A stretch of DNA of 28,404 nt from a virus: positions 1 through 28,404 of the IMG/VR virus record IMGVR_UViG_3300031721_000034; one strand, given 5' to 3'. The notes below the pieces were generated by a model. The model was given only the letters and a program-made list of their open reading frames with translations, did not search any database and was not told the DNA's origin. This document shows positions 14,197 through 27,174 of the stretch, one piece after another. Every line of letters starts with the position of its first letter. The stretch's first letter is position 1. The translations under genes were made by a program, and so were the position numbers.

Positions 14197-14375
14197 CTAT
14201 TTCATAACTATTGCGACTACTAAAGCAACTACACCTAAAGTTCCTACCATAGACATAGCTTCTATTCGCCACATTCTTTTGTCTAGTGCTTCTAGTTTAT
14301 CGTTGACTGCTAACGGATGGCACATTCTTTCTCGTGAGCATCAAGTTCTAGCTGTACTTTTAGTTCAGGTTGCAT
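14197..14375 (-). pseudogene. frameshifted small C-terminal-TM protein gene
   Basis: Two overlapping short frames together read like one gene. Frame A runs from ATG 14375 to TAG 14310 (MQPELKVQLELDAHEKECAIR). Frame B runs to TAG at 14197-14199 and contains AVNDKLEALDKRMWRIEAMS, then a hydrophobic span TLGVVALVVAIVMK. Small phage proteins with an HEKECAIRY-like start, a coiled coil and one C-terminal TM are familiar. Here one base is missing right after the Arg codon: adding one base after CGTTA would give Arg-Tyr-Ala-Val-Asn and fuse the frames into a roughly 59-aa protein. Frame B also has its own ATG at 14325, giving 42 aa. It may be a real deletion, a sequencing or assembly error, or less likely a -1 frameshift (no classic slippery heptamer is present). 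Family role is probably membrane- or tail-associated, XhlA-like, and uncertain. Confidence 0.6.
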
Positions 14376-14386
14376 GTTTAACTTCA

Positions 14387-14572
14387 TCAATCAGCATCTG
14401 CTATTGAGTTGCCATCTATTGCTGCCCACACAAGGATTGCTTTGTAGTATCTGTTGTTAGGGTCTAGTGGTATATGATACAAAATTCCATCAATAGTAGC
14501 TTGAATATTGTTGATTTCATTTTCATTATTAGGAAATAACTTATTATAATATTTTGCATTTTCGAAATTCAT
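14387..14572 (-). CDS. small fibre-associated protein (possible chaperone/adaptor)
   Basis: This encodes 61 residues: MNFENAKYY, then a beta-hairpin-like stretch QATIDGILYHIPLDPNNRYY, then a helix KAILVWAAIDGNSIADAD. The pattern of a short acidic beta segment followed by DPxNRxYxAIxxW is typical of small proteins encoded next to tail-fibre genes in marine phages, and resembles the start of tail-fibre assembly or adaptor proteins. It follows the 352-aa receptor-binding protein by nine bases and is probably its partner. No enzyme motif is present. The role is inferred from context. Confidence 0.65.
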   Translation of the reverse strand: MNFENAKYYNKLFPNNENEINNIQATIDGILYHIPLDPNNRYYKAILVWAAIDGNSIADAD

Positions 14573-22765: not shown

Positions 22766-23830
22766 TTATACTGCCCTCATGTAATTTTTCCTGTTTATTA
22801 ATTCCACCCTCATCCGTTTAATACCGTCTTCGTATTCCTTAAGGGCATATTGTGCTGTCTGTACATCTGACCTAAACATGTAGGTGTAGTACTTTGCACG
22901 AGCATTTATTATTGATTCAAATCTTGTAGGTATAATGCCTGTGTCAGTTGCACCAGTTAAATCTGTATTAGTTACGTAATAATCAAAACTTATTGTTCTG
23001 TTACTTGAATCTGGTATAGGTGTCAAACCTATTTCATCGTTGTAAGTGGTGTATACAAACTCAGGATCGGCAAACTTATTTGTGTCGGGTCTAGAATCTC
23101 TTTCTCTAAACTTTTCGTTGTACTCTTCATATGATATGTACTTAAGAGCTATAGATTCAACATTCTCCATTAGCTCAATTAATTTAACAAAAGCTGCAGA
23201 ACCTGCAGACTCTGTAAAAGTAACAAAATGGGTTATCGCTGTGGCTACAAAAGTAACTTCAGATATTAACACTTCGTTACCACTTGCTATAGTAAGGGTA
23301 GATGATTTAGTCTGTGTGCCACCTGAGCTAGTGCCTATATCTAATGTAAGTGTTGAACCACTTGTTTGAACAAGTATAGTGTACGTTCTTCCGACAATCA
23401 GATCACTAACTTGTTGTGTTGCCTTTGCACTAGTAAGTAACAACGTGTTACCAAACTTAGAACTTGCAGCAGGAGAACCTGATACTGCAGTCCAGTTTGT
23501 TATACTAGCTGCACCCTCAATCTCAAAGTCACCGTTCCTTATATAATCTTTTGGCTCAAGAAATACATTGTCGTAGTCTATGTACTTAAGAGTGGAAGCA
23601 ATAGACGCAAAACTATATAGCTGTTTACCTGCTATTGCATCTTCTGCACCCTCTGCTCTAGTAAAGGGCCAGTTAAGCTCTGAGTTAAGAATGTCTGAGA
23701 TAGATCGGTTGATGTAATCTTTTACAGTAGTTTGTACACCTCTAGAACTTGTAAAGTTAGAGCTAGTAAGCTCCACTTCGTTCATGTCCCTAAGTACGTT
23801 GTTTACTAATGTTAGATACGAACTTGCCAT
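22766..23830 (-). CDS. tail adaptor (T7 gp11-like) with inserted jelly-roll domain
   Basis: This encodes 354 residues. Residues 1-97 (LTLVNNVLRDMNEVEL, VKDYINRSISDILNSELNWP) and 224-354 (SFDYYVTNTDLTG, FESIINARAKYYTYMF, YEDGIKRMRVELINRKNYM) look like the helical core and C-terminal helices of podovirus tail tubular protein A, which forms a 12-mer ring under the portal. Between them, about 98-223 is a beta-rich insert starting IRNGDFEIEG, with TNW, then QQVSDLIVGRTYTILVQTSG, resembling a CBM-type jelly roll. Without the insert the protein is about 228 residues, near T7 gp11 (196 aa). It follows the 71-aa gene directly and precedes the hub, as in T7 (11 then 12). Assignment is by motif and order. 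Confidence 0.78.
   Translation of the reverse strand: MASSYLTLVNNVLRDMNEVELTSSNFTSSRGVQTTVKDYINRSISDILNSELNWPFTRAEGAEDAIAGKQLYSFASIASTLKYIDYDNVFLEPKDYIRNGDFEIEGAASITNWTAVSGSPAASSKFGNTLLLTSAKATQQVSDLIVGRTYTILVQTSGSTLTLDIGTSSGGTQTKSSTLTIASGNEVLISEVTFVATAITHFVTFTESAGSAAFVKLIELMENVESIALKYISYEEYNEKFRERDSRPDTNKFADPEFVYTTYNDEIGLTPIPDSSNRTISFDYYVTNTDLTGATDTGIIPTRFESIINARAKYYTYMFRSDVQTAQYALKEYEDGIKRMRVELINRKNYMRAV
23162..23539 (-). other. jelly-roll domain inserted in tail adaptor
   Basis: This encodes residues 98-223 of the 354-aa adaptor. It has its own domain-like start (NGDFE, then NW) and a strand series ending ITHFVTFTESAGSAAFVKLI, a layout seen in carbohydrate-binding module 4/9-like domains. 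The flanking helical parts join well without it. Confidence 0.6.
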
Positions 23831-24101: not shown

Positions 24102-24209
24102 TTATTTAGTTAACTTTTTAAAAGCTTCTTTTATTTCTTCTATCGATCTGTTACACCCGACACAGATATTATTGTTATCTAACTTACAGACACCTACGCA
24201 GGGACTCAC
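24102..24209 (-). CDS. DUF1289-like Cys4 microprotein
   Basis: This encodes 35 residues from a GTG that overlaps the stop of the 246-aa gene as GTGA. The sequence SPCVGVCKL, then NNICVGCNRSIEEI closely follows the DUF1289 pattern (SPCIxVCxLD...CxGCxRTxxEI). Cys4, Cys8, Cys16 and Cys19 are positioned to bind one zinc or form two disulfides. The basic helix at the end (KEAFKKLTK) resembles bacterial members, which are short conserved proteins of unknown function. It is the last gene before the internal promoter. A phage copy may be a regulator or a metal-binding accessory, by inference. Confidence 0.75.
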   Translation of the reverse strand: MSPCVGVCKLDNNNICVGCNRSIEEIKEAFKKLTK

Positions 24210-24946
24210 TTAGCAATACTTCTCAAACTATCCATAACATCGTCTATTGATGGCTCTTTAGAATTAGGGTTGTGTATACATTTATACTGCTTAGGGCAAC
24301 CTATCCTGATGTCAGTAAATTCCATCTCGAAAGTTTTGTTTGCACCTTCGTATATGCAAGCCATCTTATCTTTCCATACTTTTTGCGACTTTAATCGGCA
24401 AGTAACATAAACTGGTTTAACGATTAACTTCTGCCACAACTTCTGTTGATCAGTCCAATCTTTAGAATGTGACTGTTTAGAAAGCACCCCTACTAATAGT
24501 AATAAGAATCCACCTATCACAAGAACTAGAAATAACCATCCTATTCCTTCGCCTATCTGTTTTCTAAGGGCTTGTTGTTTATAGATAGTTCGTTGTCTTT
24601 CTTTTCTAATTTCACCTTCCATCTGAAGGAGTTCATCGTAGGCATTAGGTCCTATAGTCAAATTCAAATACATCTTTAGTTCATAACGTTGTTCTTCTAG
24701 TTTCTTCTTAGCAGAGTAAGCTTGTAAAGCCATTGTCTCAATGCTCCCTGCACCGAAGATTTGACTAAACACTCCCGGATTCTTTGCTTGCTTCTCTGCA
24801 TTGTCCACATCTGAAGCTGCTCCCATCCAGCGACCTATGTCACCCGACATTTGTTCCAAATCACGACCCATTGCAAAGCCCGACTTAATTGCACTAAAAG
24901 CTTTTCCAGCTACCCCTACAGCAATGCTGATGGTTAATGGGTCCAT
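24206..24946 (-). CDS. membrane protein of the lysis region with Cys-containing C-terminal domain
   Basis: This encodes 246 residues. The N-terminus (MDPLTISIAVGVAGKAFSAI) and a helical stretch to 130, with basic EIRKERQRTIYKQQALRK, precede one strong TM at about 134-154 (GWLFLVLVIGGFLLLLVGVL). The C-terminal 90 residues carry Cys183, Cys197, Cys217 and Cys223 (CRLKSQKVWKDKMACIYEG, RIGCPKQYKCIHNPNS). If the basic pre-TM segment stays inside, the Cys domain would be periplasmic and could form two disulfides. Proteins with this layout are frequent in marine phages near lysozymes. I know of no proven function, and a spanin-like or superinfection-exclusion role is only a hypothesis. It starts in overlap with the 60-aa gene (TAATG) after AAGGA, and ends in overlap with the DUF1289-like gene. 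Confidence 0.75.
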   Translation of the reverse strand: MDPLTISIAVGVAGKAFSAIKSGFAMGRDLEQMSGDIGRWMGAASDVDNAEKQAKNPGVFSQIFGAGSIETMALQAYSAKKKLEEQRYELKMYLNLTIGPNAYDELLQMEGEIRKERQRTIYKQQALRKQIGEGIGWLFLVLVIGGFLLLLVGVLSKQSHSKDWTDQQKLWQKLIVKPVYVTCRLKSQKVWKDKMACIYEGANKTFEMEFTDIRIGCPKQYKCIHNPNSKEPSIDDVMDSLRSIAK

Positions 24947-25128
24947 TAGTTTTTCCTTACTGGTTTACAATACGCTGTTATTTGTAAATTAGGTCCTTGT
25001 TTTTGTGGGACAGAAGGTTGTCTGTGTAATCTCTCTGCAAAGTATAAGCAACGATCTATGTCGTTAAAGGTTTGTGTTTGGTCTATAACTCGTAATCCCA
25101 TCATAAATACAAGTACAAACTCAACCAT
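24946..25128 (-). CDS. 60-aa protein with hydrophobic N-terminus
   Basis: This encodes 60 residues: a short hydrophobic start (MVEFVLVFMMGL), then a polar region with DIDRCLYFAERLHRQ and QITAYCKPVRKN. Two Cys (27 and 54) could pair. The N-terminus is short for a TM, but could act as a signal anchor placing the rest in the periplasm. Its stop overlaps the start of the 246-aa gene, so the two are likely made together, as are i-spanin/o-spanin pairs. I recall small proteins with this FAERL...C pattern beside the 246-aa type in other marine phages, with no known function. It lacks the lipobox of an o-spanin. Confidence 0.68.
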   Translation of the reverse strand: MVEFVLVFMMGLRVIDQTQTFNDIDRCLYFAERLHRQPSVPQKQGPNLQITAYCKPVRKN

Positions 25129-25132
25129 TCAC

Positions 25133-25243
25133 TTACACAGGTACTCCTTTTACCTCTTCTTCTTTGTGGCAAGTGCAAGTACATTCTTCGCAATCACACT
25201 CATAACATGTGCAAGTGTCACACCTTTTCTTTTCTTCGGTCAT
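25133..25243 (-). CDS. 36-aa Cys-rich microprotein
   Basis: This short frame overlaps the lysozyme stop as ATGA and ends four bases before the 60-aa gene. It encodes 36 residues, eight of them Cys, all within residues 8-25 (CDTCTCYECDCEECTCTC), flanked by charged ends (MTEEKKR and HKEEEVKGVPV). A run of alternating CxC units is typical of metallothionein-like metal clusters. Disulfide-rich peptides usually have wider and more varied spacing. No signal peptide is visible. Acidic residues in the cluster and a His after it would help metal binding. No family is recognised. Coding support comes from the exact overlap, the GGGGAG site about eight bases ahead, and tight fit between neighbours. Confidence 0.65.
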   Translation of the reverse strand: MTEEKKRCDTCTCYECDCEECTCTCHKEEEVKGVPV

Positions 25244-25725
25244 AGCCACTCCCCATTTTTCATTGCTAAGGATAGCTTCATAGCTCTGCCTTTTACTTGG
25301 TCTGCCCACCTAGAATCAATCATCTCTTCACAAGCTGAGATGTAATTTACTTTTTCTATGGCTAACCACATATCCTTAAATTTCATTAATCTTGGAACAC
25401 CCATATTAAATGCCATGTCTATAAGTACCATTTGTCTTACAGCATTTACCTGATTTACTATTGGCTTGTTGGCAAGGAGTTCTTTTTCTACGATGGCTAT
25501 GTCATTCATACAAAGATAATACGCTTCTTCTTCTGTAAGACCCACTTCGTATATTTCTTCTGTGGTCTTATTCATGTAGGATAGCTCACCGTCTGTGATA
25601 CCCCTGTCTTCAAGATTACGACCAATTCCCACTGTATCTATGCCTAAGTGGTCTTGGTAGACGTTAAGTCGTAGACCTTCATGTAAAGCAATCATCTTGA
25701 CTAGTTCATCAGCATCGTATTTCAT
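25240..25725 (-). CDS. T4-type lysozyme (endolysin, GH24)
   Basis: This encodes 161 residues that hydrolyse the peptidoglycan glycan chain to lyse the host. The catalytic triad fits T4 lysozyme exactly: Glu16 in LHEGLRL, Asp25 in VYQDHLG and Thr31 in DTVGIG, spaced nine and six residues, as Glu11, Asp20 and Thr26 in T4. The second lobe has AVRQMVLIDMAFNMGVPRL and SRWADQVKGRA. The length matches T4 (164). There is no signal peptide or signal-anchor, so release needs the holin found four genes upstream. AAGG lies before the ATG, and the stop overlaps the Cys-rich microprotein. Confidence in the activity is high from the motif. Confidence 0.93.
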   Translation of the reverse strand: MKYDADELVKMIALHEGLRLNVYQDHLGIDTVGIGRNLEDRGITDGELSYMNKTTEEIYEVGLTEEEAYYLCMNDIAIVEKELLANKPIVNQVNAVRQMVLIDMAFNMGVPRLMKFKDMWLAIEKVNYISACEEMIDSRWADQVKGRAMKLSLAMKNGEWL

Positions 25726-25727
25726 TG

Positions 25728-25904
25728 TTAAACCTTTTTCTTTTTCTTAGGAAAGCCTGCTTGCATATTAGCATATGCTTTAGGAGATATAGTTGACTTC
25801 TTCTTAGTAGCACTGTCGCCAGCCTTCTTCTTCTGGTTAATGTTGTAATACAAACCCTTCTTAGCTGTTTTACCAGACTTAGTTTTGTGTGTTCCTACTG
25901 CCAT
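25728..25904 (-). CDS. 58-aa Lys-rich basic protein
   Basis: This encodes 58 residues ending two bases before the lysozyme start. It is very basic: GTHKTKSGKTAKKGLYYNIN, KKKAGDSATKKKSTISP, then AYANMQAGFPKKKKKV. The GLYYNIN and KKKSTISPKAYANMQAG segments look like a conserved core found in other marine-phage small proteins. It has no Cys and no membrane segment. It may bind nucleic acid or pack in the virion. The role is unknown. Confidence 0.7.
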   Translation of the reverse strand: MAVGTHKTKSGKTAKKGLYYNINQKKKAGDSATKKKSTISPKAYANMQAGFPKKKKKV

Positions 25905-25909
25905 TGTCT

Positions 25910-26080
25910 TTAACCCTTCTTTGCTTTAGCTTGTGCTGTTTTAGATAAGTCCTTTAAATGAGATAAAGGTTTGCTCGTCTTAGTGTGAGTTTTGCCAGTA
26001 TGCAAAGTGCCATCCTTCATCTTGTGTGATGCACCTGTATACAACGTTCCGTTCTTTAGATAATGCTTTACGCCCTTCAT
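25910..26080 (-). CDS. 56-aa Lys/His-rich basic protein
   Basis: This encodes 56 residues, starting one base inside the stop of the 107-aa gene (TAATG) after AGGAAA. The first half holds a twofold pattern, HYLKNGTLYTGASHKMKDGT then LHTGKTHTKTSKPL, with repeated GTLxTGxxHK units. The second half is a short basic helix (LSKTAQAKAKKG). Many marine phages carry a short protein with this GTLYTGxxHKxxGTLxTGKTH signature near structural genes, from memory. Function is unknown. Virion or nucleic-acid association is a guess from its charge. Confidence 0.72.
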   Translation of the reverse strand: MKGVKHYLKNGTLYTGASHKMKDGTLHTGKTHTKTSKPLSHLKDLSKTAQAKAKKG

Positions 26081-26403
26081 TACTTTTTCCTAACAATTTT
26101 TAATTTTTTACTTCTGGCAATAGCTGCTTTTACAGCTTCATCTTTTGTTTTATGAACACTCGTAGCTTTTTTAGGATTCTTTTTGTACATTCTTAATAGT
26201 TGATCTTCATTAAAAATTTTATTACCTTGAACACTTGGTATGTTAATCCACTTGCTAGTTTTAATATTCTTAGGGTCAAGAGGTATTGTTCTTGATTTTT
26301 CAGAGATATGTTCTAGAGGAGCAACAGGAGCAGATTGACGTTTAAATACTGGCTTTCCTGTTTGCTTTACTTTTAAATTAGTTTTTACTCCTGCAAATGC
26401 CAT
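26080..26403 (-). CDS. 107-aa basic hypothetical protein
   Basis: This encodes 107 residues. It has a basic disordered start (VKTNLKVKQTGKPVFKRQS), a central motif SKWINIPSVQGNKIFNEDQL, and a basic helical end with TSVHKTKDEAVKAAIARS followed by KKLKIVRKK. The WINIPS...G...F.EDxL.....TSxHKTKxEAxxAAxxRS pattern recurs in small marine-phage proteins from memory, with no assigned function. It has no Cys or membrane span. The start overlaps the holin stop (TAATG), and its stop overlaps the next gene, placing it in a coupled run between holin and lysozyme. Confidence 0.72.
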   Translation of the reverse strand: MAFAGVKTNLKVKQTGKPVFKRQSAPVAPLEHISEKSRTIPLDPKNIKTSKWINIPSVQGNKIFNEDQLLRMYKKNPKKATSVHKTKDEAVKAAIARSKKLKIVRKK

Positions 26404-26795
26404 TACTTTTTCCCCATAATTTTCATTGCAGCTCCTGCCCCCTTAATTCCAAACGATGCACTAATTGCTATAAACAAAAGATACTGATACCATTCAGGAA
26501 GTGTATTAAGAACTTCAAAGCCTATCCTAACGTACTCAGTCATACTAGGAATGAAGACTAAAATCGCTGGAGCTAATAAGACAACTAAAGCAAATTCATC
26601 CTTCCAGCTTGAATCTGTAGCGTCTGCCATAGACTTCTCCCATTGGACTTCGCCTGTTGCTACTTTCTCTGCAACAACTGCTTTAGCTCTAGCTTGGGCT
26701 ACCTTAGCTTGCCCGTCAGCTTTAACTTTCTCAACTTTGCTGCTCATCCAGCTTGAAGCTAGATTAGCAATAGGACCTATTAATGCACCAAACAT
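26403..26795 (-). CDS. holin of the GTA three-TM type
   Basis: This encodes 130 residues. A short hydrophobic start (FGALIGPIANLASSW) is followed by a charged helix at 18-45 rich in Lys and Ala, then two strong TMs at about 66-84 (EFALVVLLAPAILVFIPS) and 104-122 (QYLLFIAISASFGIKGAG). WKDEFALVVLLAP and LPEWYQYLLFIAISASFGI fit the gene-transfer-agent-type holin family (GTA_holin_3TM). The protein would form inner-membrane lesions that let the lysozyme reach peptidoglycan. It overlaps the microprotein before it by one base (TAATG). Lysis function is inferred from family and the nearby lysozyme. Confidence 0.85.
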   Translation of the reverse strand: MFGALIGPIANLASSWMSSKVEKVKADGQAKVAQARAKAVVAEKVATGEVQWEKSMADATDSSWKDEFALVVLLAPAILVFIPSMTEYVRIGFEVLNTLPEWYQYLLFIAISASFGIKGAGAAMKIMGKK

Positions 26796-26902
26796 TATAC
26801 TCTCCCTTGACTCCTGTGCAACTGATTTACGTAACGTCTGTAAAAGTTGTTGCCTATCTTGTTAAATAATTTAAATAACTTAAAATTAATTGCTCTTAAC
26901 AT
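26795..26902 (-). CDS. 35-aa basic aromatic microprotein
   Basis: This short frame encodes 35 residues (MLRAINFKLFKLFNKIG, then NNFYRRYVNQLHRSQGRV). It forms an amphipathic helix with Phe and Leu on one side and Lys and Arg on the other. Its start lies seven bases inside the end of the 92-aa gene in another frame and its stop overlaps the holin ATG (TAATG), so it fills the gap exactly. Similar NFKLFKLFNKIGNxFY peptides occur before holins in other marine phages as I recall. A membrane-surface role coupled to the holin is possible but not shown. Confidence 0.62.
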   Translation of the reverse strand: MLRAINFKLFKLFNKIGNNFYRRYVNQLHRSQGRV

Positions 26903-27174
26903 TTCCATCTTTTTCTAGCCTGTCTTAATCGGCTGTTAGGGTCTTTTGCTGCTTTAGGAAACTTCTTCATTTGCCCTAAGCTTCTTGCACAATAGGACTT
27001 TCTACGTTTAGCAGCTGTGCTTCCAGCCTTTACTTTGCCAGTTACTGCTGTCTTTAGTTTACTTCCGGGATTGTCCTTCTTGTACTTAGCCACACCTTTG
27101 GCTGTCATACCTGCACCTTTTTTGGTTGGGCGTTTATGACCACCTCCAATTGTATGACCTTTCATACCTCCCAT
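26896..27174 (-). CDS. 92-aa very basic phage protein
   Basis: This encodes 92 residues, nearly a third Lys or Arg. The Gly-rich start (MGGMKGHTIGGGHKRPTKK) is followed by GMTAKGVAKYKKDNPGSKLK, then AAKRRKSYCARSLGQMKKF and SRLRQARKRWKC at the end. The KGVAKYKxxNPGSKLxTAV...RRKSFCAR...KRWxC layout is a recurrent phage family of unknown function, from memory. Cys62 and Cys92 are in conserved positions. The charge suggests DNA or RNA binding, perhaps packaged with DNA. AGGGG precedes the ATG. It is the first gene after the hairpin that follows the decoration protein. Confidence 0.75.
   Translation of the reverse strand: MGGMKGHTIGGGHKRPTKKGAGMTAKGVAKYKKDNPGSKLKTAVTGKVKAGSTAAKRRKSYCARSLGQMKKFPKAAKDPNSRLRQARKRWKC

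Follow-up and report, generated by a model that had tools for sequence, protein, structure and literature searches.

An apparently undescribed, conserved cassette of four cysteine-containing genes in marine podoviruses of the HMO-2011 type

Between the lysozyme gene and the tail genes of a virus in IMG/VR lie four small, closely coupled genes whose products all contain cysteines, and the locus raises the question whether these genes belong together and what they could do late in infection. The initial annotation had proposed an undescribed cassette that acts jointly at the envelope, perhaps replacing spanins or handling metal or redox during lysis. The window, i.e. the whole stretch of DNA that was analysed, comprises 28,404 nucleotides (record IMGVR_UViG_3300031721_000034) and covers about half of a genome of ~55 kb. 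By the coat and tail genes within it (DNA polymerase, portal and TerL are encoded elsewhere in the genome), the window belongs to a marine podovirus of the HMO-2011 type. Its coat fragment and 503-aa tail protein are closest to phages of this type; the tail protein is 56% identical to that of Puniceispirillum phage HMO-2011 and 49% to that of Pelagibacter phage HTVC033P, and the coat is related too. The features that matter here are the following.

22766..23830, minus strand: tail adaptor (SU10_adaptor), downstream of the cassette
24102..24209, minus strand: d35, 35 aa, DUF1289 (PF06945), GTG start
24206..24946, minus strand: p246, 246 aa, one transmembrane (TM) segment, 4 Cys; 'MDP'-type, phrog_32327 superfamily
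24946..25128, minus strand: p60, 60 aa, 2 Cys; predicted beta-beta-alpha-beta fold
25133..25243, minus strand: cys36, 36 aa, 8 Cys; metallothionein-like peptide, CxxCxCxxCxCxxCxCxCH
25240..25725, minus strand: lysozyme (Phage_lysozyme, PF00959), same type as HMO-2011 gp56
26403..26795, minus strand: holin-like protein, 130 aa, phrog_2524, two TM segments by hydropathy; resembles HMO-2011 gp58

The four coupled genes were found where they had first been described, all on the minus strand, 3' of the lysozyme gene and overlapping or nearly abutting. The lysozyme gene (25725-25240) and cys36 (25243-25133) share 4 nt, cys36 and p60 are separated by 4 nt, p60 and p246 overlap by 1 nt at 24946, and p246 and d35 by 4 nt. 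All four open frames recur in relatives, where substitutions fall mostly at codon position 3 and the cysteines are kept, which indicates that the ORFs are not there by chance. By hydropathy p246 alone of the four products has a TM segment. The three other products have neither a TM segment nor a lipobox, and inspection revealed no evident signal peptide in them, which speaks against the proposed joint action at the envelope. A hydrophobic stretch in the tail adaptor scored 1.65, near the threshold, and was not counted as a membrane segment. The 130-aa protein is holin-like by topology only, its PHROG match being to a family without an assigned function. Beside the lysis genes a cluster of small Lys-rich proteins is present (25728-27174, minus strand), which is also common in HTVC033P and other relatives. 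At 14200-14410 (minus strand) an XhlA-like one-TM coiled-coil ORF is split by a frame break, either a sequencing error or real; HMO-2011 and three cassette-bearing contigs have an unbroken counterpart. An XhlA-like gene ahead of the MDP gene occurs in several lineages, not in most.

The peptide cys36 has the eight cysteines that had been counted. Cys 8, 11, 13, 16, 21, 23 and 25 are 99-100% conserved among 105 distinct relatives and Cys18 in 59% of them; the His is invariant in 12 aligned sequences. No Pfam, PHROG or NCBIfam family and no PDB sequence match was found for it, short Cys-rich queries having little power in such searches, and a literature search found no paper on a phage metallothionein. 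The only cassette product that matches a named family is d35, whose assignment as a DUF1289-like Cys4 protein was confirmed by Pfam (47.3 bits, E=1.8e-12, above the gathering cut-off of 27 bits). Its cysteines 4, 8, 16 and 19 are 100% conserved in relatives.

For p60 a beta-beta-alpha-beta fold was predicted with high confidence. The hydrophobic start corresponds to predicted strand 1 (residues 2-10, mean pLDDT 93.5) rather than to a signal or membrane segment. Cys27 and Cys54 are 100% conserved in relatives. The best match in a fold search (Z 5.6) gives no function. Among the collections scanned p60 occurs in viral contigs only; a degenerate-pattern scan of 84,980 bacterial and archaeal genomes with a p60 profile detected no relative, one of the grounds on which a cellular origin was rejected. 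Cultured marine phages encode further small proteins that begin with a hydrophobic stretch and contain 3-4 Cys, close to lysis or terminase genes: HTVC033P gp47 (L091 5334-5555), CRP-9 gp68, CRP-5 gp31 and CRP-212 gp48.

The topology described for p246 was reproduced: one TM segment at residues 138-156 by hydropathy, followed by Cys183, 197, 217 and 223, all 100% conserved in relatives. The protein is composed of a predicted helical N-domain, the TM segment and a C-terminal beta-rich domain with the four cysteines after an AxA-like motif. It matches phrog_32327 with E=1.7e-4 over residues 10-130, and short relatives do so with values up to 4.4e-16. Two related types make up this family, the MLAEL-type and the MDP-type, which may or may not carry the C-terminal Cys4 domain, and all members tested match phrog_32327. 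Where cys36, p60 and the MDP gene are all adjacent, the MDP protein is short in 58 loci and fused to the Cys4 domain in 28. A small-x-small motif, often AxA, lies between the TM segment and the Cys4 domain in 59/59 distinct Cys4-type proteins tested; this loose pattern would suit release of the domain by signal peptidase. The AlphaFold model of p246 has a modest confidence of 71. A fold search matched its N-domain to helical bundles, syntaxin 6 among them, with Z values of about 10, which common helical arrangements also reach; the C-terminal domain was barely covered, and no function was taken from these matches.

Cultured members of the MDP family occur in HMO-2011-type, Cobavirus, T7-like and myovirus phages of Roseobacter, Limnohabitans and Pelagibacter. 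A plasmid scan for the MLAEL type gave no match, nor did a single-protein, degenerate-pattern scan of the 84,980 bacterial and archaeal genomes with CRP-9 gp60, which detects close relatives only. The weak HetE-N Pfam match of CRP-9 gp60 (E=0.14) was not used. Many p246 relatives (L021 at about 6001, L055, L063 and others) have no ATG, GTG or TTG at the conserved start and the frame opens with ATA-GAT-CCA, which suggests a rare start codon. Directly upstream of MDP in Roseobacter phages CRP-5, CRP-7, CRP-345 and CRP-212 lies an unannotated signal-peptide-like Cys ORF (L084 4780-4956, L089 2182-2358, L087 4846-4998, L313 3816-3968). Homology of this ORF with the p246 Cys4 domain was rejected: the spacing is similar and profile support is nil. 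In many contigs the gene for an EF-hand-like two-TM protein follows the MDP gene directly or lies close to it, in the neighbourhood of the holin (L036 3580-3891 and 54 other ORFs).

IMG/VR was scanned with p246, the short MDP family, p60 and cys36 as queries and the loci were annotated with profiles, which yielded about 300 loci that were collected through the cassette proteins and are related by descent, their counts not being independent. The order cys36-p60-MDP-DUF1289 recurred again and again. Among 107 distinct p60 loci with flanks, cys36 is directly upstream in 93, the MDP gene is directly downstream in 91 (directly upstream in 4), and a DUF1289 gene adjoins the MDP gene in 74. MLAEL-type MDP genes have p60 upstream in 48/53. 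Partial versions are common as well, with MDP alone, p60 after MDP or DUF1289 missing. The lysozyme gene lies downstream of the cassette in 58 of the 107 loci, upstream in 36 and on both sides in 1; a further 2 show only a holin-like gene, downstream, and 10 neither lysozyme nor holin in the available flanks. Lysozyme or holin thus flanks 97/107, in at least three arrangements. The downstream type of lysozyme is only ~30% identical to that of the window, and in G001 and G004, two contigs of 53-58 kb, structural genes surround the cassette, and holin and lysozyme are 20-odd kb distant. As the order is the same whether lysozyme is upstream, holin and another lysozyme are downstream, or both are 20-odd kb away, the block moves as a whole, usually though not invariably together with lysis genes. 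The proposal of an undescribed cassette thus withstood the comparison of the 107 loci, in which homologues were not scattered, and the cassette is real and conserved and has apparently not been described before. A defence system was considered and rejected, PADLOC giving no convincing match.

Linkage to lysis genes extends to the MDP family at large: of the 71 family genes for which 3 kb of flank is available on each side, 45 have an endolysin within 3 kb. In CRP-118 and ctEw122 the MDP-family gene directly precedes the endolysin gene (a lysozyme in ctEw122). In CRP-118, MLAEL is followed by the CHAP endolysin gene, an Rz-like gene and an Rz1-like ORF with a lipobox, and in CRP-171 the order is MLAEL, a two-TM protein and a u-spanin-like gene; u-spanin-like genes are also present in CRP-9 and contig L116. 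In Oceanospirillum phage GJ44, DUF1289 is ORF 9 and the amidase ORF 10 (PMC8451122). The claim that the window has no Rz/Rz1 spanin with a lipobox was borne out with a lipobox detector that finds spanins of known type in four control loci (CRP-9, CRP-171, CRP-118 and L116): neither the cassette nor the late strand of the window has a lipobox ORF, and no convincing spanin was seen in the window, which holds about half of the ~55-kb genome. With the same detector no convincing spanin was found in four cassette-bearing contigs of 53-58 kb or in HMO-2011; a few ORFs were flagged in HMO-2011 and one of the contigs, and these lack a TM segment after the Cys. Since HMO-2011, which has no cassette, also has no recognisable spanin, spanin absence does not track the cassette.

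The suggested handling of metal or redox is compatible with the (nearly) invariant cysteines, and a further hint comes from NifU-like genes, which are rare. Such a gene (PF01106, 1.8e-25) is present in the DNA examined around 10/74 distinct cassette loci versus 0/60 loci with MDP only (Fisher p=0.002, uncorrected for kinship). In whole contigs the comparison was 2/30 versus 0/20, which is not significant, and none of the 50 contigs contained PF01521 (ErpA/IscA type). L245 (6416-6682) and 13 other cassette loci were noticed to carry a NifU-like (PF01106) gene downstream of the cassette, where it separates the holin-like gene from lysozyme. Fe-S genes have been described in HMO-2011-type genomes (PMC9038755), and the E. 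coli DUF1289 gene ydhL, when overexpressed, scored for resistance to H2O2 and HOCl in a screen (PMC8228696).

The explanation that we tentatively prefer is that the cassette is an inner-membrane-anchored metal/thiol accessory of the late/lysis module. The four genes would be co-expressed as a late accessory module. The MDP-family protein would reside in the inner membrane with its N-terminus in the cytoplasm and would organise a small set of cytosolic cysteine proteins, namely cys36 as a metallothionein-like metal binder, p60 with its fixed Cys pair and d35 as a DUF1289 Cys4 protein. At the membrane the module might bind metal ions or thiols late in infection, when holin and endolysin act, and could thereby provide late proteins with metal (Zn, Cu or Fe/Fe-S), keep such metal for them, or tune the lysis machinery. 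The gene-order counts, the 99-100% conservation of the cysteines in all four products except Cys18 of cys36, the lack of TM segments in three of them, the predicted strand at the start of p60, the lysis linkage and the NifU, Fe-S and DUF1289 hints argue for this explanation; the rarity of NifU, the absence of PF01521, the distance of the cassette from the lysis genes in G001 and G004, its absence from HMO-2011, the modest confidence of the p246 model and the fold matches that give no function argue against it.

It is nearly as likely that the MDP protein itself acts in lysis, either like a holin or as a lysis regulator that has a single C-terminal TM segment, the small Cys proteins then serving as regulators or partners and metal being secondary. 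The position of the gene in CRP-118, before endolysin, Rz-like and Rz1-like genes, is the slot where a holin often lies; ctEw122 has the MDP gene followed by lysozyme, and in C72C1, DC31 and L116 it is no more than about 1 kb away from lysis genes. In cobaviruses, one- and two-TM genes in the vicinity of spanin and endolysin have been named potential holins or antiholins (PMC6775973). However, other holin-like genes (two-TM or GTA_holin_3TM) stand beside the MDP gene in the window and in relatives, in G001 and G004 the gene is far from the endolysin, and several roseophages have it beside terminase instead. It is a good deal less probable that there is no joint function and that unrelated small late genes are kept by translational coupling and common descent. 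The frequent partial versions would agree with this, but the order persists while flanking lysis genes are exchanged or moved, and p60 keeps its place ahead of MLAEL-type genes.

Quite unlikely is a role as minor virion or ejection proteins, with the membrane protein entering the envelope at infection. The surroundings in G001 and G004 and the closeness of the window cassette to the tail adaptor fit such a role, and the helical N-domain and TM segment of p246 would suit an ejection protein; yet the usual neighbours are lysis and terminase genes, and proteins so small and Cys-rich are unusual in virions. The replacement of spanins, with the periplasmic Cys4 domain of p246 and p60 bridging or disrupting the outer membrane, seems very improbable. 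The predicted periplasmic Cys domain and the negative spanin searches in the window and the four large contigs would be in keeping with it, but most cassette MDP proteins lack that domain, no signal peptide is evident in p60, CRP-9, CRP-118, CRP-171 and L116 have spanins alongside MDP-family proteins, HMO-2011 has neither cassette nor recognisable spanin, and the cassette may lie far from lysozyme (G001 and G004).

The boldest reading, which we regard as improbable, takes the cassette as a new kind of phage late module, in which a complex anchored in the membrane handles metal or Fe-S, is tied to the holin-endolysin step and is widespread in one of the dominant groups of marine phages. A four-gene unit that is kept while the surrounding lysis genes are exchanged is in any case a concrete and testable target, be it for a metal or redox step during late infection or for a component of lysis not characterised before.

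Compared with known systems, cys36 resembles metallothioneins in its dense CxC/CxxC pattern, with seven near-invariant Cys and a His within about 19 residues; the likeness is one of Cys content and spacing, and homology to any family was not detectable. With DUF1289 (E. coli YdhL) d35 has the four-Cys motif in common, but at 35 aa it covers only positions 1-27 of the 47 of the model. The profile of phrog_32327, a phage family without an assigned function, is 152 aa long, and p246 adds the C-terminal Cys4 domain to it. Like two-component or unimolecular spanins, p246 is a one-TM late protein near an endolysin; unlike them its set has no lipobox lipoprotein and no paired overlapping Rz1, and its TM segment is internal, after a predicted cytoplasmic domain of 130 aa. 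In HMO-2011, gp46 and the tail gene come directly after the coat gene, the genes for lysozyme and the holin-like protein are located upstream of terminase and there is no cassette, whereas in the window the lysis genes and the cassette are placed between coat and tail.
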